From: Streptomyces graminofaciens
GTDB taxonomy: Bacteria; Actinomycetota; Actinomycetes; Streptomycetales; Streptomycetaceae
Direction of reading: 5' to 3'
Length of the DNA: 64,000 nucleotides
Assembly (NCBI RefSeq): GCF_030294945.1
Contig: NZ_AP018448.1
Location: 11,380,501 to 11,444,500 of the forward strand
Part shown: piece after piece, positions 39,246 to 46,829 of the stretch
Numbering within the stretch: the stretch's first letter is position 1
How the letters are laid out: each line of letters opens with the position of its first letter
The notes under the pieces: generated by a model
Told to the model about the DNA's origin: nothing
What the model saw: only the letters and a program-made list of their open reading frames with translations
The model's database searches: none
Program-made: the position numbers and the translations under genes

Positions 39246-40154
39246 TCAGGGGGTGCCGGTGTGCGATGTCGGCACCGCTGGGTACTTCCCGAGCCGGGCC
39301 TCGGCCGTCGGTACCCGTTCCAGGACGCCGCCCGCGAACGTGTCGTACAACGGCAGCGTTTCGAGGTGGACATAGCCGATGTGGCAGTCGCAGACGGCGA
39401 GCGGGCACGGGCGGGGCGCGAGGGCCGCGCGGTACGAGCCGTCGTAGAGGTTGCCCAGCTCGGCCCGGACGAAGTGACAGCGCCGCACTGTCCCGTCGCC
39501 GTCGACGGACACGACCGTCGAGCCCGTACGGCACGGCAGGCCCGCAGAGCGGTGCGGTTCACGGCTGAACGGGAACAGCGGGTCCAACTCGGTCCAGAGC
39601 GCGGCCTGTTCGTCCGTGTACGAGTGGCCCTCCGCCGCGTTCACCCACAGATACACCTGCTCCGGCAGCTCGGCGCGCAACCGCCGCGCGTGCTCCAGGT
39701 GCTCGGGCAGCCCGACGATCCCCACACTGAACCGGACCCCCATGCCGACCAGCCGCCGCGTCTTGTCGAGGAACCGCTCGTACGGTGTCTGCCCCGGGTG
39801 GTACGTGCACCACAGGGCCACCGTGTCCAGGTCCGCCTCGGCCAGCCACTCCGTACGGCAGCTGAGGTTCGTCTGGATCGCCACGCGGTCGATGTGCGGC
39901 TCCCGCGACAGCTCCACCATGGCCCGCCGGTACCAGGACCGCACCAGTCCCTCGCCCCACGGGGTGAACAGCACCGACAGCCGGTCGTCCGTCTGCGCCC
40001 GCGCCCAGCCGGCGAAACGGTCGAGGGCGGCACGGTCGGCCCGCAACTGCGCCGTCGAGTCACGCCTCTTGGCGAACGGGCAGTACGGGCAGTCGTAGTC
40101 GCAGGAGGCGAGCGGGCCCCGGTACAGGATCGTCAGGTCCACGGCGGCCGTCAC
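39246..40154 (-). CDS. STM4011-family radical SAM protein
   Basis: 302 residues. The radical SAM [4Fe-4S] motif CxxxCxxC is at Cys18, Cys22, Cys25 (CDYDCPYC). A short TIM-barrel-like region follows (LFTPWGEGLV, VAIQTNLSCR, VGIVGLPEHLEHA). The C-terminal part has further Cys (GLPCRTGS, RRCHFVRAELGN, PLAVCDCHIGY), possibly a second, SPASM-like cluster. It belongs to the STM4011 family named after a Salmonella locus and has no known reaction. The GTG start overlaps the STM4012-type stop (GTGA), making it the last gene of the five-gene cluster. Confidence 0.9.
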   Translation of the reverse strand: MTAAVDLTILYRGPLASCDYDCPYCPFAKRRDSTAQLRADRAALDRFAGWARAQTDDRLSVLFTPWGEGLVRSWYRRAMVELSREPHIDRVAIQTNLSCRTEWLAEADLDTVALWCTYHPGQTPYERFLDKTRRLVGMGVRFSVGIVGLPEHLEHARRLRAELPEQVYLWVNAAEGHSYTDEQAALWTELDPLFPFSREPHRSAGLPCRTGSTVVSVDGDGTVRRCHFVRAELGNLYDGSYRAALAPRPCPLAVCDCHIGYVHLETLPLYDTFAGGVLERVPTAEARLGKYPAVPTSHTGTP

Positions 40155-41491
40155 CGCAGCTCGTAGTCGGCCATCGCGGCCCGCACGCCCGGGGAGAAGA
40201 ACTCGGGACCGATCGCGTCCGAGTGCGCCAGCCCCTCGGGAGTGAGCCGCAGAAGCTCGGTCCCGGTGTCCGCCAGCCAGCCACGGGAGGCCAGCGTCTC
40301 CAGCTCCGCCGGGAAGTCCTCGTACGGCTCCGCCCCGAACCGGCGCCGGTAGTCGGCCACCGGCAGTCCCTCCGCCTGGAGCAGCGACTGCAGCAGATGG
40401 CGGCGCCGCGCCTCGCCCTCGTCGACCGCGCGGCCGACGGACGCGCGGCTGAAGTCCTCGGTGGCCGCGTAGTCGTCGATGATCGCGCGGATCTCCCGCA
40501 TGTCGACCGCGTAGTCGAAGGAGTAGTGCACTTTCGACGTGTACGAGCGGGCGCCGCAGCCCAGGCCGATCATGCCGTCGGTCTGGCAGGTGTAGTCGTC
40601 CGGGCCCTGCGGTGGCGCGTCCGCGCGGCGGAACATCCGCATCGACACCTGCTCGTAGCCATGGGCGAGGAGGTGGTCGCGGCCCTCGCGGTAGCGCCGC
40701 AGCCGTGCCTCGTCCCAGTCACGGTCCGCGACCTCCGGGTCGAGGTGCCGGCCGAGGCCCGTCAACGGCCGTACATACAGGGGGTAGAGATAGATCTCCT
40801 CCGGCCGCCAGGCGAGGGCCGCGTCGAGGGAGAGCCGCCAACTGGCCGCCGTCTGCCCGTCGATGCCGTAGATCAGGTCGATGTTGAGGACCGGGATGCC
40901 GGTGTCGCGGACGCGGGAGAGGGCCGTCTCGACGTCGGCGCGGCGCTGCGGTCGTACTGCCGCGCGTGCCTCCGCTTCGACGAAGCTCTGCACTCCGAGG
41001 CTGAGCCGCGTGGTGCCCCGCTCGGCCAGTACCGCGAGCCGGTCGGCCGTCGCGGTGGCGGGGGAGGCCTCGACCGACAGCGGGATCGCCCGGAGGTCCG
41101 CGCCCATGTGCCGCTCGGCGATGTCGCACAGCCGTTCCAGCTCGGCGGCCTCCAGATAGGTCGGCGTACCCCCGCCGAACGCGGCGTTCGCGAACCGCAC
41201 CGGCGCCGTGTCACCCAGCGCCTCGCGCACCGCGATCGCCTGCCGTTCCAGCGCGTCGAGGTAACGGCCGGTCAGCCCGTCCGGAGCACCGATCCGGGTG
41301 AACAGGTTACAGAACCCGCAGCGCACCTCGCAGAACGGTATGTGCGCGTAGAGGGACAGGGCCGCTCGGGACTCGCCGGCCCACAGGTCCGCGAGCCGTG
41401 GACTGCCGGGCAGCTTTCGGTACGCCGTCTTGTGCGGGTAGGCGTACACGTAGTGCTGATAGGGGCGAACCGGTGTCTCGGTCACGGTCAT
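40151..41491 (-). CDS. STM4012-family radical SAM protein (HemN-like)
   Basis: 446 residues. The cluster motif is at Cys54, Cys58, Cys61 (CEVRCGFC), without the extra Cys of HemN's CxxxCxxCxC. HemN-like features follow: FANAAFGGGTPTYLEAAELE, TRLSLGVQSFVEAE, VLNIDLIYGIDGQTAASW, LYPLYVRPLTGLG and a C-terminal HemN_C-like wing (EGLAHSDAIGPEF). It is assigned to the STM4012 family rather than true coproporphyrinogen dehydrogenase because of the neighbours. It is a probable SAM-dependent radical enzyme; substrate unknown. The ATG shares ATGA with the STM4013-type stop. Confidence 0.9.
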   Translation of the reverse strand: MTVTETPVRPYQHYVYAYPHKTAYRKLPGSPRLADLWAGESRAALSLYAHIPFCEVRCGFCNLFTRIGAPDGLTGRYLDALERQAIAVREALGDTAPVRFANAAFGGGTPTYLEAAELERLCDIAERHMGADLRAIPLSVEASPATATADRLAVLAERGTTRLSLGVQSFVEAEARAAVRPQRRADVETALSRVRDTGIPVLNIDLIYGIDGQTAASWRLSLDAALAWRPEEIYLYPLYVRPLTGLGRHLDPEVADRDWDEARLRRYREGRDHLLAHGYEQVSMRMFRRADAPPQGPDDYTCQTDGMIGLGCGARSYTSKVHYSFDYAVDMREIRAIIDDYAATEDFSRASVGRAVDEGEARRRHLLQSLLQAEGLPVADYRRRFGAEPYEDFPAELETLASRGWLADTGTELLRLTPEGLAHSDAIGPEFFSPGVRAAMADYELR

Positions 41492-42357
41492 GCGGACGGC
41501 TCCAGGAAGAAGTGGCTGTAGGGGACGGTCCACACGGCCTCGTGGCCGAGCCGGTGCCCGGTGTATCCGTCGTCCCCGTACGTGGTCCCGTGGTCGGAGC
41601 AGACGACGGCGAAGCAGCGGCGGCGTGAGCTCATCGCGGTGAAGAGCCGCCCGATGTGCCGGTCGATGTACTCCAGGGCCGCCGCGTGGGTGACCAGGCT
41701 GTCGCCTGCCTCGCGGGTGGCGCCGGGCAGGTGGAACCAGTTGGGCTGGTGCAGGGCCGAGGCGTTGAGGAAGAGGAACAGCCGCTGTTCGGCGGGCAGT
41801 TCGGCCACGATCCGTTCGGCGAGGGCCACCTGGGACTCGAAGGAGGTCGGGGAGGCGACCGAGAACTCCGGCTCCCAGTGGCTCTCCTGGAACAGGCCCG
41901 GCAGGACGCTGCCCAGTGCGCCCTGCTTGTTGAAGAAGCCGACACCGCCGACGCACACCGTGCGGTAACCGCGCTCGGCGAGCGCCGACACCAGGTCGGG
42001 CCGGTCGAAGACGAATGTGCGCCCCGCTGTCGTCTCGCTGCCGGCGAACCGGCTCGCGAAGAGGCGCGGGTGCGGTCCGGGGGCCGCCGGGGTCGGCAGG
42101 AAGCCCGCGAACATGGCCTGGTGCGAGGCGTAGGTGAAGCTGCCGGGCGCGTGCCGCTTCTCCCAGGTGCCGCCCGGCAGATGTGCGGCCAGGTTCGGCA
42201 GCCGGCCGGCCGCCGCGAGCTCCACGGCCACGTCGTACCGGAGTGTGTCGAGCGTGAGCAGCAGCAGGTCGTCGCGGCCCACCACCTCGTTCATGTCGGG
42301 CTCCGGGGCCGCGGCCCCGGGGTTCGGTTCGGCTACGTGCAGGTCAGATACGTGCAT
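41488..42357 (-). CDS. STM4013/SEN3800-family hydrolase (alkaline phosphatase/sulfatase fold)
   Basis: 289 residues. The N-terminal nucleophile region LLLLTLDTLRYDVA (Asp37, Thr38) and the metal-binding SDHGTTYGDDGYTGHRLGHE near the end are those of the alkaline phosphatase superfamily; the nucleophile could be Thr38. No signal peptide, so it acts in the cytosol. It overlaps the STM4014-type gene by 14 bp and the STM4012-type gene by 4 bp. In this pathway it may remove or transfer a phosphate or sulfate group; that is inference. Confidence 0.88.
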   Translation of the reverse strand: MHVSDLHVAEPNPGAAAPEPDMNEVVGRDDLLLLTLDTLRYDVAVELAAAGRLPNLAAHLPGGTWEKRHAPGSFTYASHQAMFAGFLPTPAAPGPHPRLFASRFAGSETTAGRTFVFDRPDLVSALAERGYRTVCVGGVGFFNKQGALGSVLPGLFQESHWEPEFSVASPTSFESQVALAERIVAELPAEQRLFLFLNASALHQPNWFHLPGATREAGDSLVTHAAALEYIDRHIGRLFTAMSSRRRCFAVVCSDHGTTYGDDGYTGHRLGHEAVWTVPYSHFFLEPSA

Positions 42358-43513
42358 GGTCGTTCCTCGGCCGGGGGTGGTGCGAGGCCGCCGGGAGCGC
42401 GAAGCCCCGGGCCGCCGCGAGCTGCGCCGCGTAGGTGTCCAGGCCCTCCGCCGGGCTTCCCGGCAGCCCGGTCAACCGGGGCAGCAGGTCCCCGAAGGCG
42501 TTGACCTCGCCGACGGCGAACCGGCGCCAGCCGATCGACGGGAGCAGATCGACGCCGACGGACAGCGTGCGGGGGAAACAGGCCGCGGCCTGCTCGCAGA
42601 TGTCCAGCGCCCGCGCCCACCGGTCGCCCGCCGCGTCGACCACCGACGCCAGGTCGCCCCGCGCCCCGCCCAGATGGAGGTTGGTGAGAGGGAACCGGCT
42701 GGTGCGTACCACGGCGTGCGTGGCGCGGCCCGCCACGACCAGGACCCGCAGGTCCGCCGATCTGCCCTGGGCGGAGGCCTTTGGCAGCCAGCGCTCGATG
42801 TGCAGCCCGTCGGGCGCCAGCGCGTCGACGACGGCGGCGATCTCCCGCTCGTCGGTGTAGCGCCGCACCCGCAGGGAGTTGTGGAGACGGCCGTCCGGCG
42901 CCACCTCCACCGAGGTCGTGGCCCTGATCCGTCCCGACGTCGCCGTCTCGACGGCCAGCACCCCGGACGCCGACGAACCATGGGCGAGCTTGACGAAGAC
43001 ACGCGGCATGCCGTGCTCCCGCATGGCCGCCCGTACGTCGTCCCAGCCGCGCACCGGCAGCACACCGCCCGAGGTGGGCGACGGCGGCACCGGAACGCCC
43101 GCCGCGTCGAGCCGGGCATGGCACTGCCGTTTGTCGAACAGCACGGCGAGCTCCGCGGGATCGTCCAGCCGGACCCCGCCCCGCAACGACCCGACGGCGT
43201 CCAGGAACCTGCCGTACCAGGTGGCCGAACCCTCCACCCGTGTCGGTTCGTCGACCCCGCGCAGCAGCCGGTCCACTTCGGCATTCTCGCCCGGCGAGTC
43301 CAGCCGGACGATCTCGTCGTCGGCGAAGTCGTGACCGCCGTCGCGCAGGACGTCCCGCCACTCGACGATCCGGGGCGTGCCCGCACCGGCGGCCTCGGCG
43401 GCCGCGACGAACAACCGCACCCGCCGGTTCTCCCCGTTGCCGACGACCACCCACGGCGCACCCGCGCCCCCGGGACCGAACATACCGACCTCCCCCCTCA
43501 AGCCGTCCCCCAT
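42344..43513 (-). CDS. STM4014-family ATP-grasp-like protein
   Basis: 389 residues. After a nucleotide-like start (WVVVGNGENRRVRLFVAAAE) the centre shows ATP-grasp traits: VFVKLAHGSSASGVLAVE (ATP-binding Lys and flexible loop), a strand with HIERWLPKA, and near the end VGEVNAFGDLLPRL, resembling the Mg2+-binding (D/E)xN step. ATP-grasp enzymes ligate a carboxylate to an amine or thiol through an acyl phosphate. The family is named STM4014 and uncharacterised. Its stop overlaps the STM4013-type start, and it begins 24 bp after the STM4015-type gene. Confidence 0.85.
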   Translation of the reverse strand: MGDGLRGEVGMFGPGGAGAPWVVVGNGENRRVRLFVAAAEAAGAGTPRIVEWRDVLRDGGHDFADDEIVRLDSPGENAEVDRLLRGVDEPTRVEGSATWYGRFLDAVGSLRGGVRLDDPAELAVLFDKRQCHARLDAAGVPVPPSPTSGGVLPVRGWDDVRAAMREHGMPRVFVKLAHGSSASGVLAVETATSGRIRATTSVEVAPDGRLHNSLRVRRYTDEREIAAVVDALAPDGLHIERWLPKASAQGRSADLRVLVVAGRATHAVVRTSRFPLTNLHLGGARGDLASVVDAAGDRWARALDICEQAAACFPRTLSVGVDLLPSIGWRRFAVGEVNAFGDLLPRLTGLPGSPAEGLDTYAAQLAAARGFALPAASHHPRPRNDHARI

Positions 43514-43537: not shown

Positions 43538-44506
43538 CTACTCGCCCACCGCGACGAAACGCCACACCGTGCCGTCGTCCTCCTCGTCCGACTCCGCGTC
43601 GTCCGGGTCCACGTCGACCTGGACGCCCTCCGCCTCCAGGGAGTCCCGCAGCCGGTCACGTATCGCCGCGCTCAGGTAGTTGTGGTGCAGGTCCAGGGTG
43701 ATGAGGTGGGTGAGGGGCTGGCCCGTGAGCAGCGCGGTCGCGCCGTCGTCGGTGAGCACGCCCATCGACACGTCGAGGACGGCGAGACGGGCCACCACCG
43801 GCGCGGCGGCCAGCGCCGTACAGATGTCGTCCTGCATCTCGCTGTTGCGCAACGCCAGATGCCTCAGCGCCGGGAGACGTGTGCCCGCCAGGATCGGCGC
43901 CAGGTCGGCCACCTCGGAGTCGCCGCCGTACTCGGAGGTGCCCAGCCACAGATCCAGCTTGACGAGGGCCGGCAGCTCACTCGCCGCGACACCCCGCACC
44001 GCCTCTACCGGCATGCCGCCGGTCTCGACCGTCAGCGTCCGCAGCCGCTCGTGGCGCACGGCGGGGAAGACCAGCCCCTGGCCGCCGCGGACCCCGAACT
44101 CCTCCAGCTCGCCGAAGGCGTTGAGCAGTGGGGACACATCGCCCTGGTTGATCCAGGAGATCTCGCACTCCTCCATCACGATGTCCCCGAGGAACAGCGC
44201 GCGCAGGGCGGGCAGCCGGTCCTTCGCGGCCACCAGAGCCTCGATGATCTTCTCCGGACCGTTGTCGTACGCGTCGCTCCAGGCGCCCACCACCAGGGCC
44301 CGCACCTTCGTGGTGTCGACCGAGGCGAGGAACCGCCCGAACGCGTCCTCCCACTCCTCGTCGCTCTCGTACGACTCCACGGCGACCCGCCACGCCACCG
44401 ACTCGGGGTTCGGCAGTCCGGCCGCGTCCTCGGGCCCCTTCACCGAGTCCGGGAAGGTGAAGGCCGGCAGGTCGTGGAACTCCCGCAGGTGGTCTCCGAT
44501 GGTCAT
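43538..44506 (-). CDS. STM4015-family leucine-rich-repeat-like protein
   Basis: 322 residues; ATG 44506 begins MTIGDHLREFHDLPAFTF after AGAGGCGGG. From about residue 110 there are irregular LRR units (LRTLTVETGG, LVKLDLWLGT, LRHLALRNSEMQDDI, LAVLDVSMGVL, LITLDLHHNYLS). The C-terminus is very acidic (DPDDAESDEEDDG). LRR surfaces bind proteins or peptides, so this may be the recognition component of the cluster. First gene of the minus-strand STM4015-4011 unit; a DNA-damage-type promoter lies about 100 bp upstream. Confidence 0.88.
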   Translation of the reverse strand: MTIGDHLREFHDLPAFTFPDSVKGPEDAAGLPNPESVAWRVAVESYESDEEWEDAFGRFLASVDTTKVRALVVGAWSDAYDNGPEKIIEALVAAKDRLPALRALFLGDIVMEECEISWINQGDVSPLLNAFGELEEFGVRGGQGLVFPAVRHERLRTLTVETGGMPVEAVRGVAASELPALVKLDLWLGTSEYGGDSEVADLAPILAGTRLPALRHLALRNSEMQDDICTALAAAPVVARLAVLDVSMGVLTDDGATALLTGQPLTHLITLDLHHNYLSAAIRDRLRDSLEAEGVQVDVDPDDAESDEEDDGTVWRFVAVGE

Positions 44507-44609
44507 GTGCGCCCGCCTCTTCGCCTTGCTGCCGGCCGATGGATCCGACCCGGTGGCCGGAACCGCTCGCTGAACACCCGGTGCGCGGACAGCGCCGCCG
44601 GGTAGGGGA

Positions 44610-44632
44610 GTTCTACCAAGCCCCACTGACAA
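44610..44632 (-). promoter_or_regulatory. RecA-independent DNA-damage-type promoter for the STM4015-STM4011 unit
   Basis: On the minus strand TTGTCAGTG (44632-44624) is followed by exactly 8 bp (GGGCTTGG) and TAGAAC (44615-44610). The published actinobacterial RecA-NDp consensus is tTGTCRgtg-N8-TAnnnT; only the last -10 base differs (C for T). The predicted transcript starts near 44603, about 97 nt before the STM4015-type ATG. Confidence 0.65.
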
Positions 44633-44693
44633 CGCGTACGGCGGACCCTTGTTCGGTCTGGTCGCGGCCTTGCCGAGGGCGGTTGTCAGTGGG
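44622..44693. repeat. Perfect 12-bp inverted repeat joining two divergent promoters
   Basis: CCCACTGACAAC (44622-44633) and GTTGTCAGTGGG (44682-44693) are exact reverse complements 48 bp apart. Each arm contains the TTGTCAGTG element of one of the two outward-facing promoters, so the repeat reflects two activator sites rather than a hairpin. Confidence 0.8.
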
Positions 44694-44705
44694 TGCCTCT
44701 ACGGT
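44683..44705 (+). promoter_or_regulatory. RecA-independent DNA-damage-type promoter for the small-protein/DUF6745 operon
   Basis: TTGTCAGTG (44683-44691), 8 bp (GGTGCCTC), then TACGGT (44700-44705): a complete match to tTGTCRgtg-N8-TAnnnT, the LexA-independent class tied to the PafBC activator in mycobacteria. The predicted start is near 44712, giving a leader of about 38 nt with GGGAGGA at 44738-44744. Confidence 0.75.
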
Positions 44706-44749
44706 CTTCTCCATGGCACACCCGAGTGCCCCGAACGGGAGGAAGACCC

Positions 44750-45076
44750 ATGTACCGGCAGGGAGATGTCCTGATCGTGCCGCTCGCGGAGCACGCGGTG
44801 CCCGAGAGCGCGCATGACGCCGTGTCGGAGCCGCGTGACGGGCGCGGCAGGTTCGTCCTCGCCCTCGGCGAGGTCACCGGCCACGCCCACGCCGTGGTGG
44901 GCCCGGGCCGGCTGATCCGCGAGGCGGGCGTCTTCGGCCCGATGCTGTTGCACGTGCCGGAGGGCGCCCGGGTCGTCCACGAGGAGCACGCGGCGATATC
45001 CCTGCCCAAGGGCTGGTACCGAGTCGTACGACAGCGTGAGTACGTGCCGGGGTCGGTGCGGATCGTCGCCGACTGA
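44750..45076 (+). CDS. Small conserved protein, 108 aa, DUF6745 partner
   Basis: ATG 44750 with GGGAGGAAGACCC before it. The beta-rich sequence starts MYRQGDVLIVPL and has GEVTGHAHAVVGPGRL and ARVVHEEHAAISLPKGWYRV, then VRQREYVPG. The paired HAH and HEEH motifs could bind a metal. Proteins of this pattern occur beside DUF6745-type genes; no function is known. First gene after the damage-type promoter, 51 bp before the DUF6745-type gene. Confidence 0.8.
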   Translation: MYRQGDVLIVPLAEHAVPESAHDAVSEPRDGRGRFVLALGEVTGHAHAVVGPGRLIREAGVFGPMLLHVPEGARVVHEEHAAISLPKGWYRVVRQREYVPGSVRIVAD

Positions 45077-45127: not shown

Positions 45128-46189
45128 GTGACGGAAGAGACGAACTGGCGGGCGGTGGCGGCGGCCACGGGAACGGGGGAGCGTGCCGGGGCGGAGGCGG
45201 GTGTCCGCCTCGCCTACCGCAGGGCGGGGCTCGACGAGCCGGAGATGATCGTGTGGGCGCGCTCCCCGCTGGAGGCGGTGCGGCTGCTCTCCGGTGACGT
45301 GCCGGAAGGCGTGACGACGCCCCTGCCGACCGGGGCGAGCGTGCGCGACGCCCTGCGCAACAGACCTCTCGCCGCCGCCCGCGAGCGACTTCACAGCGGC
45401 CTCGGCCCGGCGGGCTGGAGCGGCCATTGGCGCGCGACGGGCGAGAACCTGTGGGAGACCACCCGCCCGCTCGTCGACCGCGTCCGCACCGGCGTCGTCG
45501 AGGCGCTGGCCCCGAGCGACCGCGAGGAGGAGACCCGCATCAGACTCCTCCTCCTGGATGCCGTCCTCGGCCAGCACGACGCCGCCTGGCTGTACGCCCT
45601 CGACACCGACACCGACGCGGACGCCGATACGGCGAGCGACGCCGGCTCCGGGCTCGACGCACTGGCCGAGGTGGCCCGTACGGCGGGCTGGTGGTGGCCG
45701 TACGAGAACGTCGCGGTCCTCACCGAACGGCCCACGGAGCTGCACCGCGACGAGGCGGGCCGTCTGGACCGCGGCGACGGCCCCGCGCTCGCCTACGCCG
45801 ACGGCTTCGCCCTGCACGCCTGGCGCGGACTGCCCGTACCCGCCGAGTTCCTCGACCGGCTGGGCGCGCTCACACCCGAGCAGATCCGGCAGGAGGAGAA
45901 CGCGGAGCTGCGCCGCGTGATGCTGGAGTTCTACGGCTACGAGCGCTATCTGGAGGAGTCCGGGGCGAAGCCGGTGGACCGCGACGAGACGGGCGTCCTC
46001 TGGCGCATAGAACTGTCCGGCGACGAGGACGTGGTGATGGTCGAGGTCGTCAACTCCACGCCCGAGCCCGACGGCACGAGCCGCACCTACTGGCTGCGCG
46101 TGCCGCCCACGACGCGTACGGCCAGGGAGGGAGTGGCCTGGACGTTCGGCCTGGACGCCGAGGTGTACGAGCCGCTGAAGCAGACGTGA
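45128..46189 (+). CDS. DUF6745-type protein
   Basis: 353 residues from GTG 45128 (GAGGGG 7 nt upstream; a GTG at 45113 is possible). Family-like segments are WWWPYENVAVLTERPTELHR, GPALAYADGFALHAWRGLPV and a C-terminal VEVVNSTPEPDG, then SRTYWLRVPPTTRTAREGVAW. The protein is soluble, with no signal or transmembrane segment, and an Asp/Thr run (DTDTDADADTASD) forms a linker. I know of no function; the promoter architecture suggests a role after DNA damage together with the 108-aa protein and perhaps the divergent radical-SAM unit. Confidence 0.85.
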   Translation: MTEETNWRAVAAATGTGERAGAEAGVRLAYRRAGLDEPEMIVWARSPLEAVRLLSGDVPEGVTTPLPTGASVRDALRNRPLAAARERLHSGLGPAGWSGHWRATGENLWETTRPLVDRVRTGVVEALAPSDREEETRIRLLLLDAVLGQHDAAWLYALDTDTDADADTASDAGSGLDALAEVARTAGWWWPYENVAVLTERPTELHRDEAGRLDRGDGPALAYADGFALHAWRGLPVPAEFLDRLGALTPEQIRQEENAELRRVMLEFYGYERYLEESGAKPVDRDETGVLWRIELSGDEDVVMVEVVNSTPEPDGTSRTYWLRVPPTTRTAREGVAWTFGLDAEVYEPLKQT

Positions 46190-46208: not shown

Positions 46209-46829
46209 TCACTCGAACCGTGACGTGTCGCCCGCGCCCTTGCGGATGATCTCGGCCTCGCCGCTGGAGAAGTCGATGACGGTCGTCGGCTCCGTGCCGC
46301 AGTCACCGGAGTCCACCACCGCGTCGACCAGGTAGTCCAGGCGCTCCTTGATCTCCCAGCCCTGCGTCATCGGCTCCTCCTCGTCGGGCAGCAGCAGAGT
46401 GCTGGAGACGAGGGGCTCGCCGAGCTCCGCGAGCAGGGCCTGGACCACGCGGTGGTCGGGGATGCGCACCCCGACGGTCTTCTTCTTGGGGTGGAGGAGC
46501 TTGCGGGGCACCTCCCTGGTCGCGGGGAGGATGAAGGTGTAACTGCCGGGCGTCGACGCCTTCACGGCGCGGAACACGTCGTTGTCGACGTGTACGAACT
46601 GGCCCAGCTGCGCGAAGTTCTCGCACACCAGGGTGAAGTGGTGACGGTCGTCGAGCTGCCGGATCGCCCGGATGCGCTCGATGCCGTCACGACTGCCCAG
46701 CTGGCACCCCAGCGCGAAGCAGGAGTCCGTCGGATACGCGATGAGCCCACCCTGACGGACGCTGTCGGCCACCTGACCGATGGCGCGCGGCTGGGGGTTG
46801 TCGGGGTGCACGTCGAAATACTTGGCCAT
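46209..46829 (-). CDS. Sua5/YciO/YrdC-family protein (threonylcarbamoyl-AMP synthase-like)
   Basis: 206 residues, a stand-alone YrdC domain. Features: VRQGGLIAYPTDSCFALGCQ (substrate entry strand), IRQLDDRHHFTLVCENF in place of the KxRxxxxPL pattern, SYTFILPATREVP and TVGVRIPDHRVVQALL. The sequence RQLDDRHHFTL is typical of the YciO branch, whose activity is weaker or different from TsaC/YrdC, which makes threonylcarbamoyl-AMP for tRNA t6A. A second, canonical Sua5 would be expected elsewhere in the genome. Confidence 0.88.
   Translation of the reverse strand: MAKYFDVHPDNPQPRAIGQVADSVRQGGLIAYPTDSCFALGCQLGSRDGIERIRAIRQLDDRHHFTLVCENFAQLGQFVHVDNDVFRAVKASTPGSYTFILPATREVPRKLLHPKKKTVGVRIPDHRVVQALLAELGEPLVSSTLLLPDEEEPMTQGWEIKERLDYLVDAVVDSGDCGTEPTTVIDFSSGEAEIIRKGAGDTSRFE

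Follow-up and report, generated by a model that had tools for sequence, protein, structure and literature searches.

What sets the expression of the five STM4015–STM4011 genes and of the pair of genes, for a 108-aa protein and a DUF6745 protein, that diverges from them, and do both sets answer to the same signal? The locus lies in the window, by which we mean the whole stretch of 64,000 nucleotides analysed here, and a first-pass annotation had placed two divergent DNA-damage-type promoters between the two gene sets. No known function for STM4011–STM4015 or DUF6745 was found in the literature searched. We posit, as the probable answer, that both operons are co-induced as one response unit from two separate, divergent promoters that belong to the DNA-damage class of actinobacteria and are activated by PafBC. 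The features involved are as follows.

39246..40154, minus strand: STM4011 family radical SAM protein (NF038073)
40151..41491, minus strand: STM4012 family radical SAM protein (NF006067)
41488..42357, minus strand: STM4013/SEN3800 family hydrolase (NF038075)
42344..43513, minus strand: STM4014 family protein (NF038074)
43538..44506, minus strand: STM4015 family protein (NF038076), first gene of the leftward operon
44610..44632, minus strand: predicted promoter of the STM4015–4011 operon, TTGTCAGTG-GGGCTTGG-TAGAAC, with one mismatch (last base C)
44622..44633, no strand: left 12-bp inverted-repeat arm CCCACTGACAAC, with the box in opposite orientation to the right arm
44632..44682, no strand: box-to-box gap of 51 bp, on the 11-bp gap series of orthologous loci
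44682..44693, no strand: right 12-bp inverted-repeat arm, 12 bp being the longest perfect arm length
44683..44705, plus strand: predicted RecA-NDp/PafBC-type promoter of the 108-aa/DUF6745 operon, TTGTCAGTG-GGTGCCTC-TACGGT, with no mismatch to TTGTCAGTG-N8-TAnnnT
44750..45076, plus strand: 108-aa protein, first gene of the rightward operon
45128..46189, plus strand: DUF6745 protein (PF20530; Pfam, 381 bits), 3' of the 108-aa gene
46209-46829, minus strand: threonylcarbamoyladenylate synthase match, following DUF6745

All five leftward genes match their NCBIfam families over cut-off, and the start of STM4012 is likely the ATG at 41491, which overlaps the end of STM4013. The rightward unit ends after DUF6745, since the threonylcarbamoyladenylate synthase match that follows is on the minus strand. 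The 108-aa protein matches no Pfam or NCBIfam family, and an alignment of 43 close homologues (77–94% identical) has 50 invariant columns. Beta strands predominate in the AlphaFold model of the 108-aa protein (pLDDT 83) and helix and strand are mixed in that of DUF6745 (pLDDT 84). Neither model has a PDB match at E <= 0.001 (for the 108-aa protein, a fold match), and structure was dropped as a functional clue to this pair. Separately, a Pfam search with two 70-aa fragments returned one YjbR match.

Both elements were found exactly where the first-pass annotation had put them, together with the 12-bp perfectly inverted arms it described; its assignment of both to the RecA-NDp class (tTGTCRgtg-N8-TAnnnT) held fully for the 108-aa side and in part for the other. 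In Streptomyces this class goes back to S. rimosus recA in 2002 (cited in PMC5087735 and PMC2375139), and SCO6735 of S. coelicolor, which has a RecA-NDp promoter, is UV-inducible (PMC5087735). The 108-aa/DUF6745 side matches these examples in box, N8 spacing and TAnnnT -10. The STM4015 side has the exact TTGTCRGTG box followed by a variant, extended -10 (TGG-TAGAAC) whose last position is not T, so the two promoters are not of the same type; unlike the known examples, moreover, the two promoters here face apart. Their positions would put the start sites near 44713 for 108-aa/DUF6745 and near 44602 for STM4015–4011. No other match at two or fewer mismatches occurs in the whole window, and dinucleotide-shuffled windows contain 0.32 matches on average and reach two in 5 of 100, so that the window by itself is just moderately significant.

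Orthologous loci were compared in three sets. In the first, 101 genomes of the family, STM4015 scored over cut-off in 51 and DUF6745 in 46, and a tally of the two listings gave 43 genomes with both. In this set TGTC and TAnnnT stand correctly spaced at all 40 non-redundant 108-aa loci, of which 38 match the core perfectly (shuffle mean 0.01), and the leftward element was present with at most one mismatch at 41 of 59 STM4015 starts, tandem copies counted (shuffle mean 0.0). The second set comprised 80 named loci, the best 80 of 509 relatives, of which 12 are from Nocardia. Among these best 80 of 509, the rightward element was found in every locus with at most one core mismatch, the full motif on the 108-aa side was free of mismatches in 53 (the other 27 had one to three and are mainly of the GACC sub-type discussed below), and STM4015 was divergent in 79, with its element in 78–79 of these, L260 needing another start. 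The third set contained 110 loci (30 + 80); it came from 394 genomes, 165 of which had a match.

The three sets together give 262 loci drawn by their 108-aa gene, which overlap in species and partly in loci and are redundant. All 262 have the rightward element within one core mismatch, 249 of them without any; TGTC-N12-TAnnnT is kept in 261, the exception being L252 with TGCC instead of TGTC. At two or fewer mismatches the leftward element occurs in 241 of the 246 loci with a divergent STM4015, and the other five (L055, L086, L118, L119, L440) need three. The check suggested by the first-pass annotation, a search of other genomes for the element ahead of STM4015-family and DUF6745 genes, found it at 241/246 and 262/262 loci respectively, in a related form on the STM4015 side. 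As the loci are related, these counts are not independent: the 246 loci represent 199 distinct intergenic sequences, 195 of which have both elements, and the pair is kept in many genomes of Streptomyces and Nocardia, twelve of the loci being from Nocardia. On the STM4015 side the core of the box is mostly kept, with the first base and the outer GTG frequently altered. Judged by these orthologues, both elements are real. A match arising by chance in GC-rich intergenic DNA, for which the 5 in 100 shuffled windows with two matches might speak, has next to no probability in view of the 199 distinct sequences (195 with both elements, Nocardia included) and of a whole-genome pattern scan, described below, in which 21 of 25 sites fall on STM4015.

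The two gene sets also travel together, in keeping with the annotation's suggestion that they may be one response system, with all six partner genes present in 75 of the 80 named loci (best 80 of 509) and the remaining five loci ending at a contig edge. Each half persists alone as well. In two genomes with DUF6745 and no STM4015 match (G037, G070) the rightward element is kept with one or two full-motif mismatches, and the leftward element is kept at most STM4015 loci that lack the neighbour. At two of the latter (L122, L128) the extended -10 is kept (TTGGTAGAAA, CTGGTAGAAA) and the TGTC box is lost, perhaps reflecting a switch to other control. Across the phylum STM4015 was matched in 6 of 396 genomes, too few to carry the comparison to that level, and five of the six belong to this genus.

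These observations bear on the first-pass annotation's view that the functional unit is one perfect inverted repeat, and on the related idea that the repeat is the palindromic operator of a single dimeric regulator rather than two promoters. The perfect 12-bp arms in the window are what such an operator would display. The gap between the boxes, however, varies from 6 to 564 bp (L440, a doubtful match, left out), the arms are often unlike (e.g. TTGTCAGACC versus TTGTCAGTG), each box persists where the other gene set is absent, and each has its own -10 at a fixed spacing. Given the range of gaps the perfect repeat is incidental, and the palindromic operator, which we hold to be highly improbable, was set aside on the variable gap and the persistence of each half alone.

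Two separate promoters, then, differ consistently in their -10 regions. The 108-aa-side -10 has T as its last base in 262/262, and TG is absent from the spacer at -15/-14. All 241 STM4015-side elements at two or fewer mismatches carry this TG and have a -10 closing with C or A. The search patterns favour the contrast, T being specified in the 108-aa one and C or A in the STM4015 one. At L118, one of the loci with three mismatches, the STM4015-side -10 ends in T. A spacer ending in YTGR was found on the STM4015/priA side only. An exact-match scan of the 101 genomes for TGTCR-N7-TTGGTAGRAM returned 25 sites and its control none, 21 of the sites before STM4015, 3 before priA and 1 elsewhere; because the pattern was learned from STM4015 loci of the same genomes, the scan tests specificity and is not an independent test of conservation. 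The box (at most one mismatch) followed by YTGGTA occurs at 10 of 30 priA loci, all 10 with a GTG 7 nt past the -10; one locus (L339) has a standard site, and the other 19 have weaker matches, several being without a site. The priA gene of the present genome (G000:C1:10360459-10360480; L070, L147) has the extended -10 sub-type and a GTG 7 nt past the -10, a position at which the transcript would be leaderless.

Such consistent differences raise the alternative that the STM4015/priA-side element is read not by PafBC but by another regulator, such as a second WYL activator, and that the two sides respond to overlapping but different signals. The last -10 base and the YTGR restriction both fit this reading, as does the WYL activator SiwR, which also acts at the -26 region (PMC10693628). 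We nonetheless find it unlikely, for the distance from the TGTCRG box to the TA is identical on both sides, the full TTGTCAGTG stands on both sides at some loci, and the sub-type is common to priA, a replication-restart gene.

The rightward promoter has a second form, in which TTGTCRGACC-N7-TAnnnT stands for TTGTCAGTG at many 108-aa loci. This pattern gave 38 sites against 1 in the control in 8 genomes. Of 30 of these sites examined (L285–L314), five are the 108-aa locus itself, four precede ligA, two radA, and one each dnaE, an xthA-like and a macrodomain-like gene (named by eye), the remaining examined sites facing other or unclear genes. With ligA, radA, dnaE and the like behind this second form, the rightward promoter looks repair-class in either form.

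The full motif is strongly enriched genome-wide. TTGTCRGTG-N8-TAnnnT with at most one mismatch gave 154 matches (76 + 78) in the 11.6 Mb genome against 8 (1 + 7) for the reversed control, and 41 of the 154 are perfect. With the window's own site set aside, the best-scoring downstream ORF was taken for each of the remaining 40 perfect sites, and 30 of these ORFs were scanned with Pfam, revealing repair or replication domains in nine (RecA, UvrB, RuvC, RecD2-HHH, DnaX, an AlkZ-like glycosylase, a UDG-superfamily protein and two DEAD helicases) and no recognised repair domain in 21. The RecA-NDp class marks DNA-repair genes in this genome, among them recA, uvrB, ruvC, dnaX and genes of RecD2-type, UDG-family and AlkZ-like proteins. 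Two perfect sites, 168 bp apart, precede recA (L011, L012). At 10 of the 40 perfect sites an ORF starts 6–10 nt past the -10, so that transcripts would be leaderless and the box would lie near -26.

PafBC binds a -26 motif and is activated by single-stranded DNA (PMC11804915). The genome encodes both subunits 3' of pafA: PafB (L204, 2024-2977) matches 7p5x_AY and 9fnd_X (9e-56 and 3e-55), chains from solved PafBC entries, and PafC (L204, 2993-4000) matches the PafC chain 7p5x_AX (1e-51). The system resembles the mycobacterial PafBC regulon, which works by sigma adaptation, in the box near -26, the DNA-repair targets and the presence of PafB and PafC genes in the genome (PMC11804915); PafBC dependence here is inferred from sequence, in the form of sites and genes. 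Neither STM4015–4011 nor 108-aa/DUF6745 was found in the portions of the PafBC literature searched.

The motif family itself has been described before. SIGffRid (2008) assigned TGTCAGT motifs to 67 S. coelicolor genes, including priA, radA, dinG, ung, uvrB and dnaE (PMC2375139), and the motifs it reports for S. coelicolor and S. avermitilis are of the same family as those found here. The part of its main text compared mentions neither the STM4015/DUF6745 pair nor the STM4015-type sub-type, nor the phasing considered below. The class as such is already known in Streptomyces. In the mainly open-access main texts searched, nothing linked STM4015, DUF6745 or helical phasing to it, and neither the sub-type nor the assignment of STM4015/108-aa/DUF6745 to the class was found there. 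A 2022 study of S. venezuelae wrote that, on an initial search, the PafBC motif of M. smegmatis did not seem to be conserved in that species, and that a RecA/LexA-independent response in Streptomyces remained to be shown (PMC9380542), a matter on which the present locus bears. A record under the name S. venezuelae encodes the 108-aa protein.

The same organism supplies one argument for regulation of the region mainly by LexA as part of the SOS response, namely a LexA-associated radical SAM gene, vnz_31145, which is not necessarily an STM4011 or STM4012 gene (PMC9380542). A further hint is a one-mismatch GAAC-N4-GTTC between the promoters (44643-44654). Of 79 orthologous intergenic regions, moreover, 15 contain a site within one mismatch, versus 3.8 in mononucleotide shuffles, a comparison confounded by TAGAAC: an excess of near-LexA sites is expected because the promoter's TAGAAC gives one half-site. 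No intact site was found in any of the 79 regions. The LexA site was accordingly dropped, and we regard LexA as very unlikely to be the main regulator.

Box-to-box gaps of up to 120 bp gather near 20, 30, 41, 52, 63, 73, 85, 96 and 107 bp. Among the named loci (best 80 of 509), the periodicity observed for distinct gaps no longer than 110 bp was reached in 0 of 5000 random draws. The phasing sample omitted 24 of the 246 loci (23 with gaps above 120 bp, plus L440) and thinned the other 222 by similarity to 123. Its first part, 55 dissimilar named loci (from the best 80 of 509), has a best period of 11.0 (R 0.73) in the range 8 to 14. The second, 68 loci dissimilar to the first 55, has a period of 11.0 (R 0.60) and a phase of 8.2 versus 8.1, with 75% of loci within 2 bp of the predicted phase versus 36% expected, although this set was partly seen beforehand, as gaps of first-group loci and of 33 later ones had been computed before the final test. 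Omitting the common 28–34 class left R at 0.51 (n 38). For control lengths, namely the whole intergenic region and the distance from each box to its start codon, R at 11 was at most 0.33, and length permutation reached at most 0.28 in 5000 trials versus 0.66 for all 123 loci. Between closest relatives the gap had changed in 39 of 61 pairs, with whole turns preferred (p about 1e-4, uniform null). Above 120 bp there was no phasing, 6 of 15 distinct values falling within 2 bp, which is about chance. The helical repeat of supercoiled DNA in cells is 11.0 bp rather than 10.5 bp.

Phasing at gaps of up to 120 bp and not beyond suggests that phased promoters cooperate at short range, and more generally that two sigma-adapted promoters may interact. 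At the observed phase, points about 4 bp 5' of each box (near -34) share one face of the helix, a statement of geometry rather than of contact. A partial parallel is ThnR, for which two close divergent promoters of one activator have been described, transcription rising with both together (PMC4834489); ThnR is a LysR-type activator in a different system, and the opening of the abstract does not mention phasing.

We envisage the following course of events. In each promoter a -10 would lie at a fixed distance from a TGTCRG box whose centre is near -26, with the rightward promoter a standard RecA-NDp site and the leftward one replacing the terminal T with an extended -10 (TGG), as also occurs before priA. 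DNA damage would generate single-stranded DNA and thereby activate the PafB/PafC pair of this genome, which would keep the housekeeping RNA polymerase at the TGTC boxes by sigma adaptation and co-induce both operons as one response unit; back-to-back complexes may assist each other when close, as the 11-bp phasing at gaps of up to 120 bp would have it. Several points count against this explanation: the STM4015 side departs from the strict RecA-NDp -10, five of its 246 elements need three mismatches, L122 and L128 have lost the TGTC box, about half of the 30 priA loci have a weak site or none, gaps above 120 bp are unphased, 21 of the 30 scanned ORFs are without a recognised repair domain, and the initial search in S. 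venezuelae pointed away from conservation of the mycobacterial motif. Paired promoters facing seven genes suggest that these genes may act as one damage-response unit, and a role of the seven proteins after DNA damage, perhaps in repair, is read from the promoters in front of them. The conserved damage-type promoter on both halves provides a first testable expression condition for STM4011–STM4015 and DUF6745.

A more far-reaching version can be offered tentatively, as a possibility we rate below even chances. The intergenic region would be a bidirectional damage promoter on which two PafBC–RNA polymerase complexes, placed back to back and always on one face of the helix, cooperate, with whole helical turns gained or lost as long as they remain close. 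It would co-induce a seven-gene module (two radical SAM enzymes, the hydrolase, STM4014, STM4015, DUF6745 and the 108-aa protein) forming an unknown branch of the actinobacterial damage response, with an extended -10 sub-class common to priA.

Additional copies of both families occur. The present genome has a second, diverged DUF6745 gene (G000:C1:10232448-10233092, L146; 98.7 bits), with no TGTCR-N11-TAnnnT site in the 4.5-kb stretch examined, where one match ends in C. STM4015 is often present in at least two tandem copies (L034, L039, L050 and others), with up to eight matches per genome.
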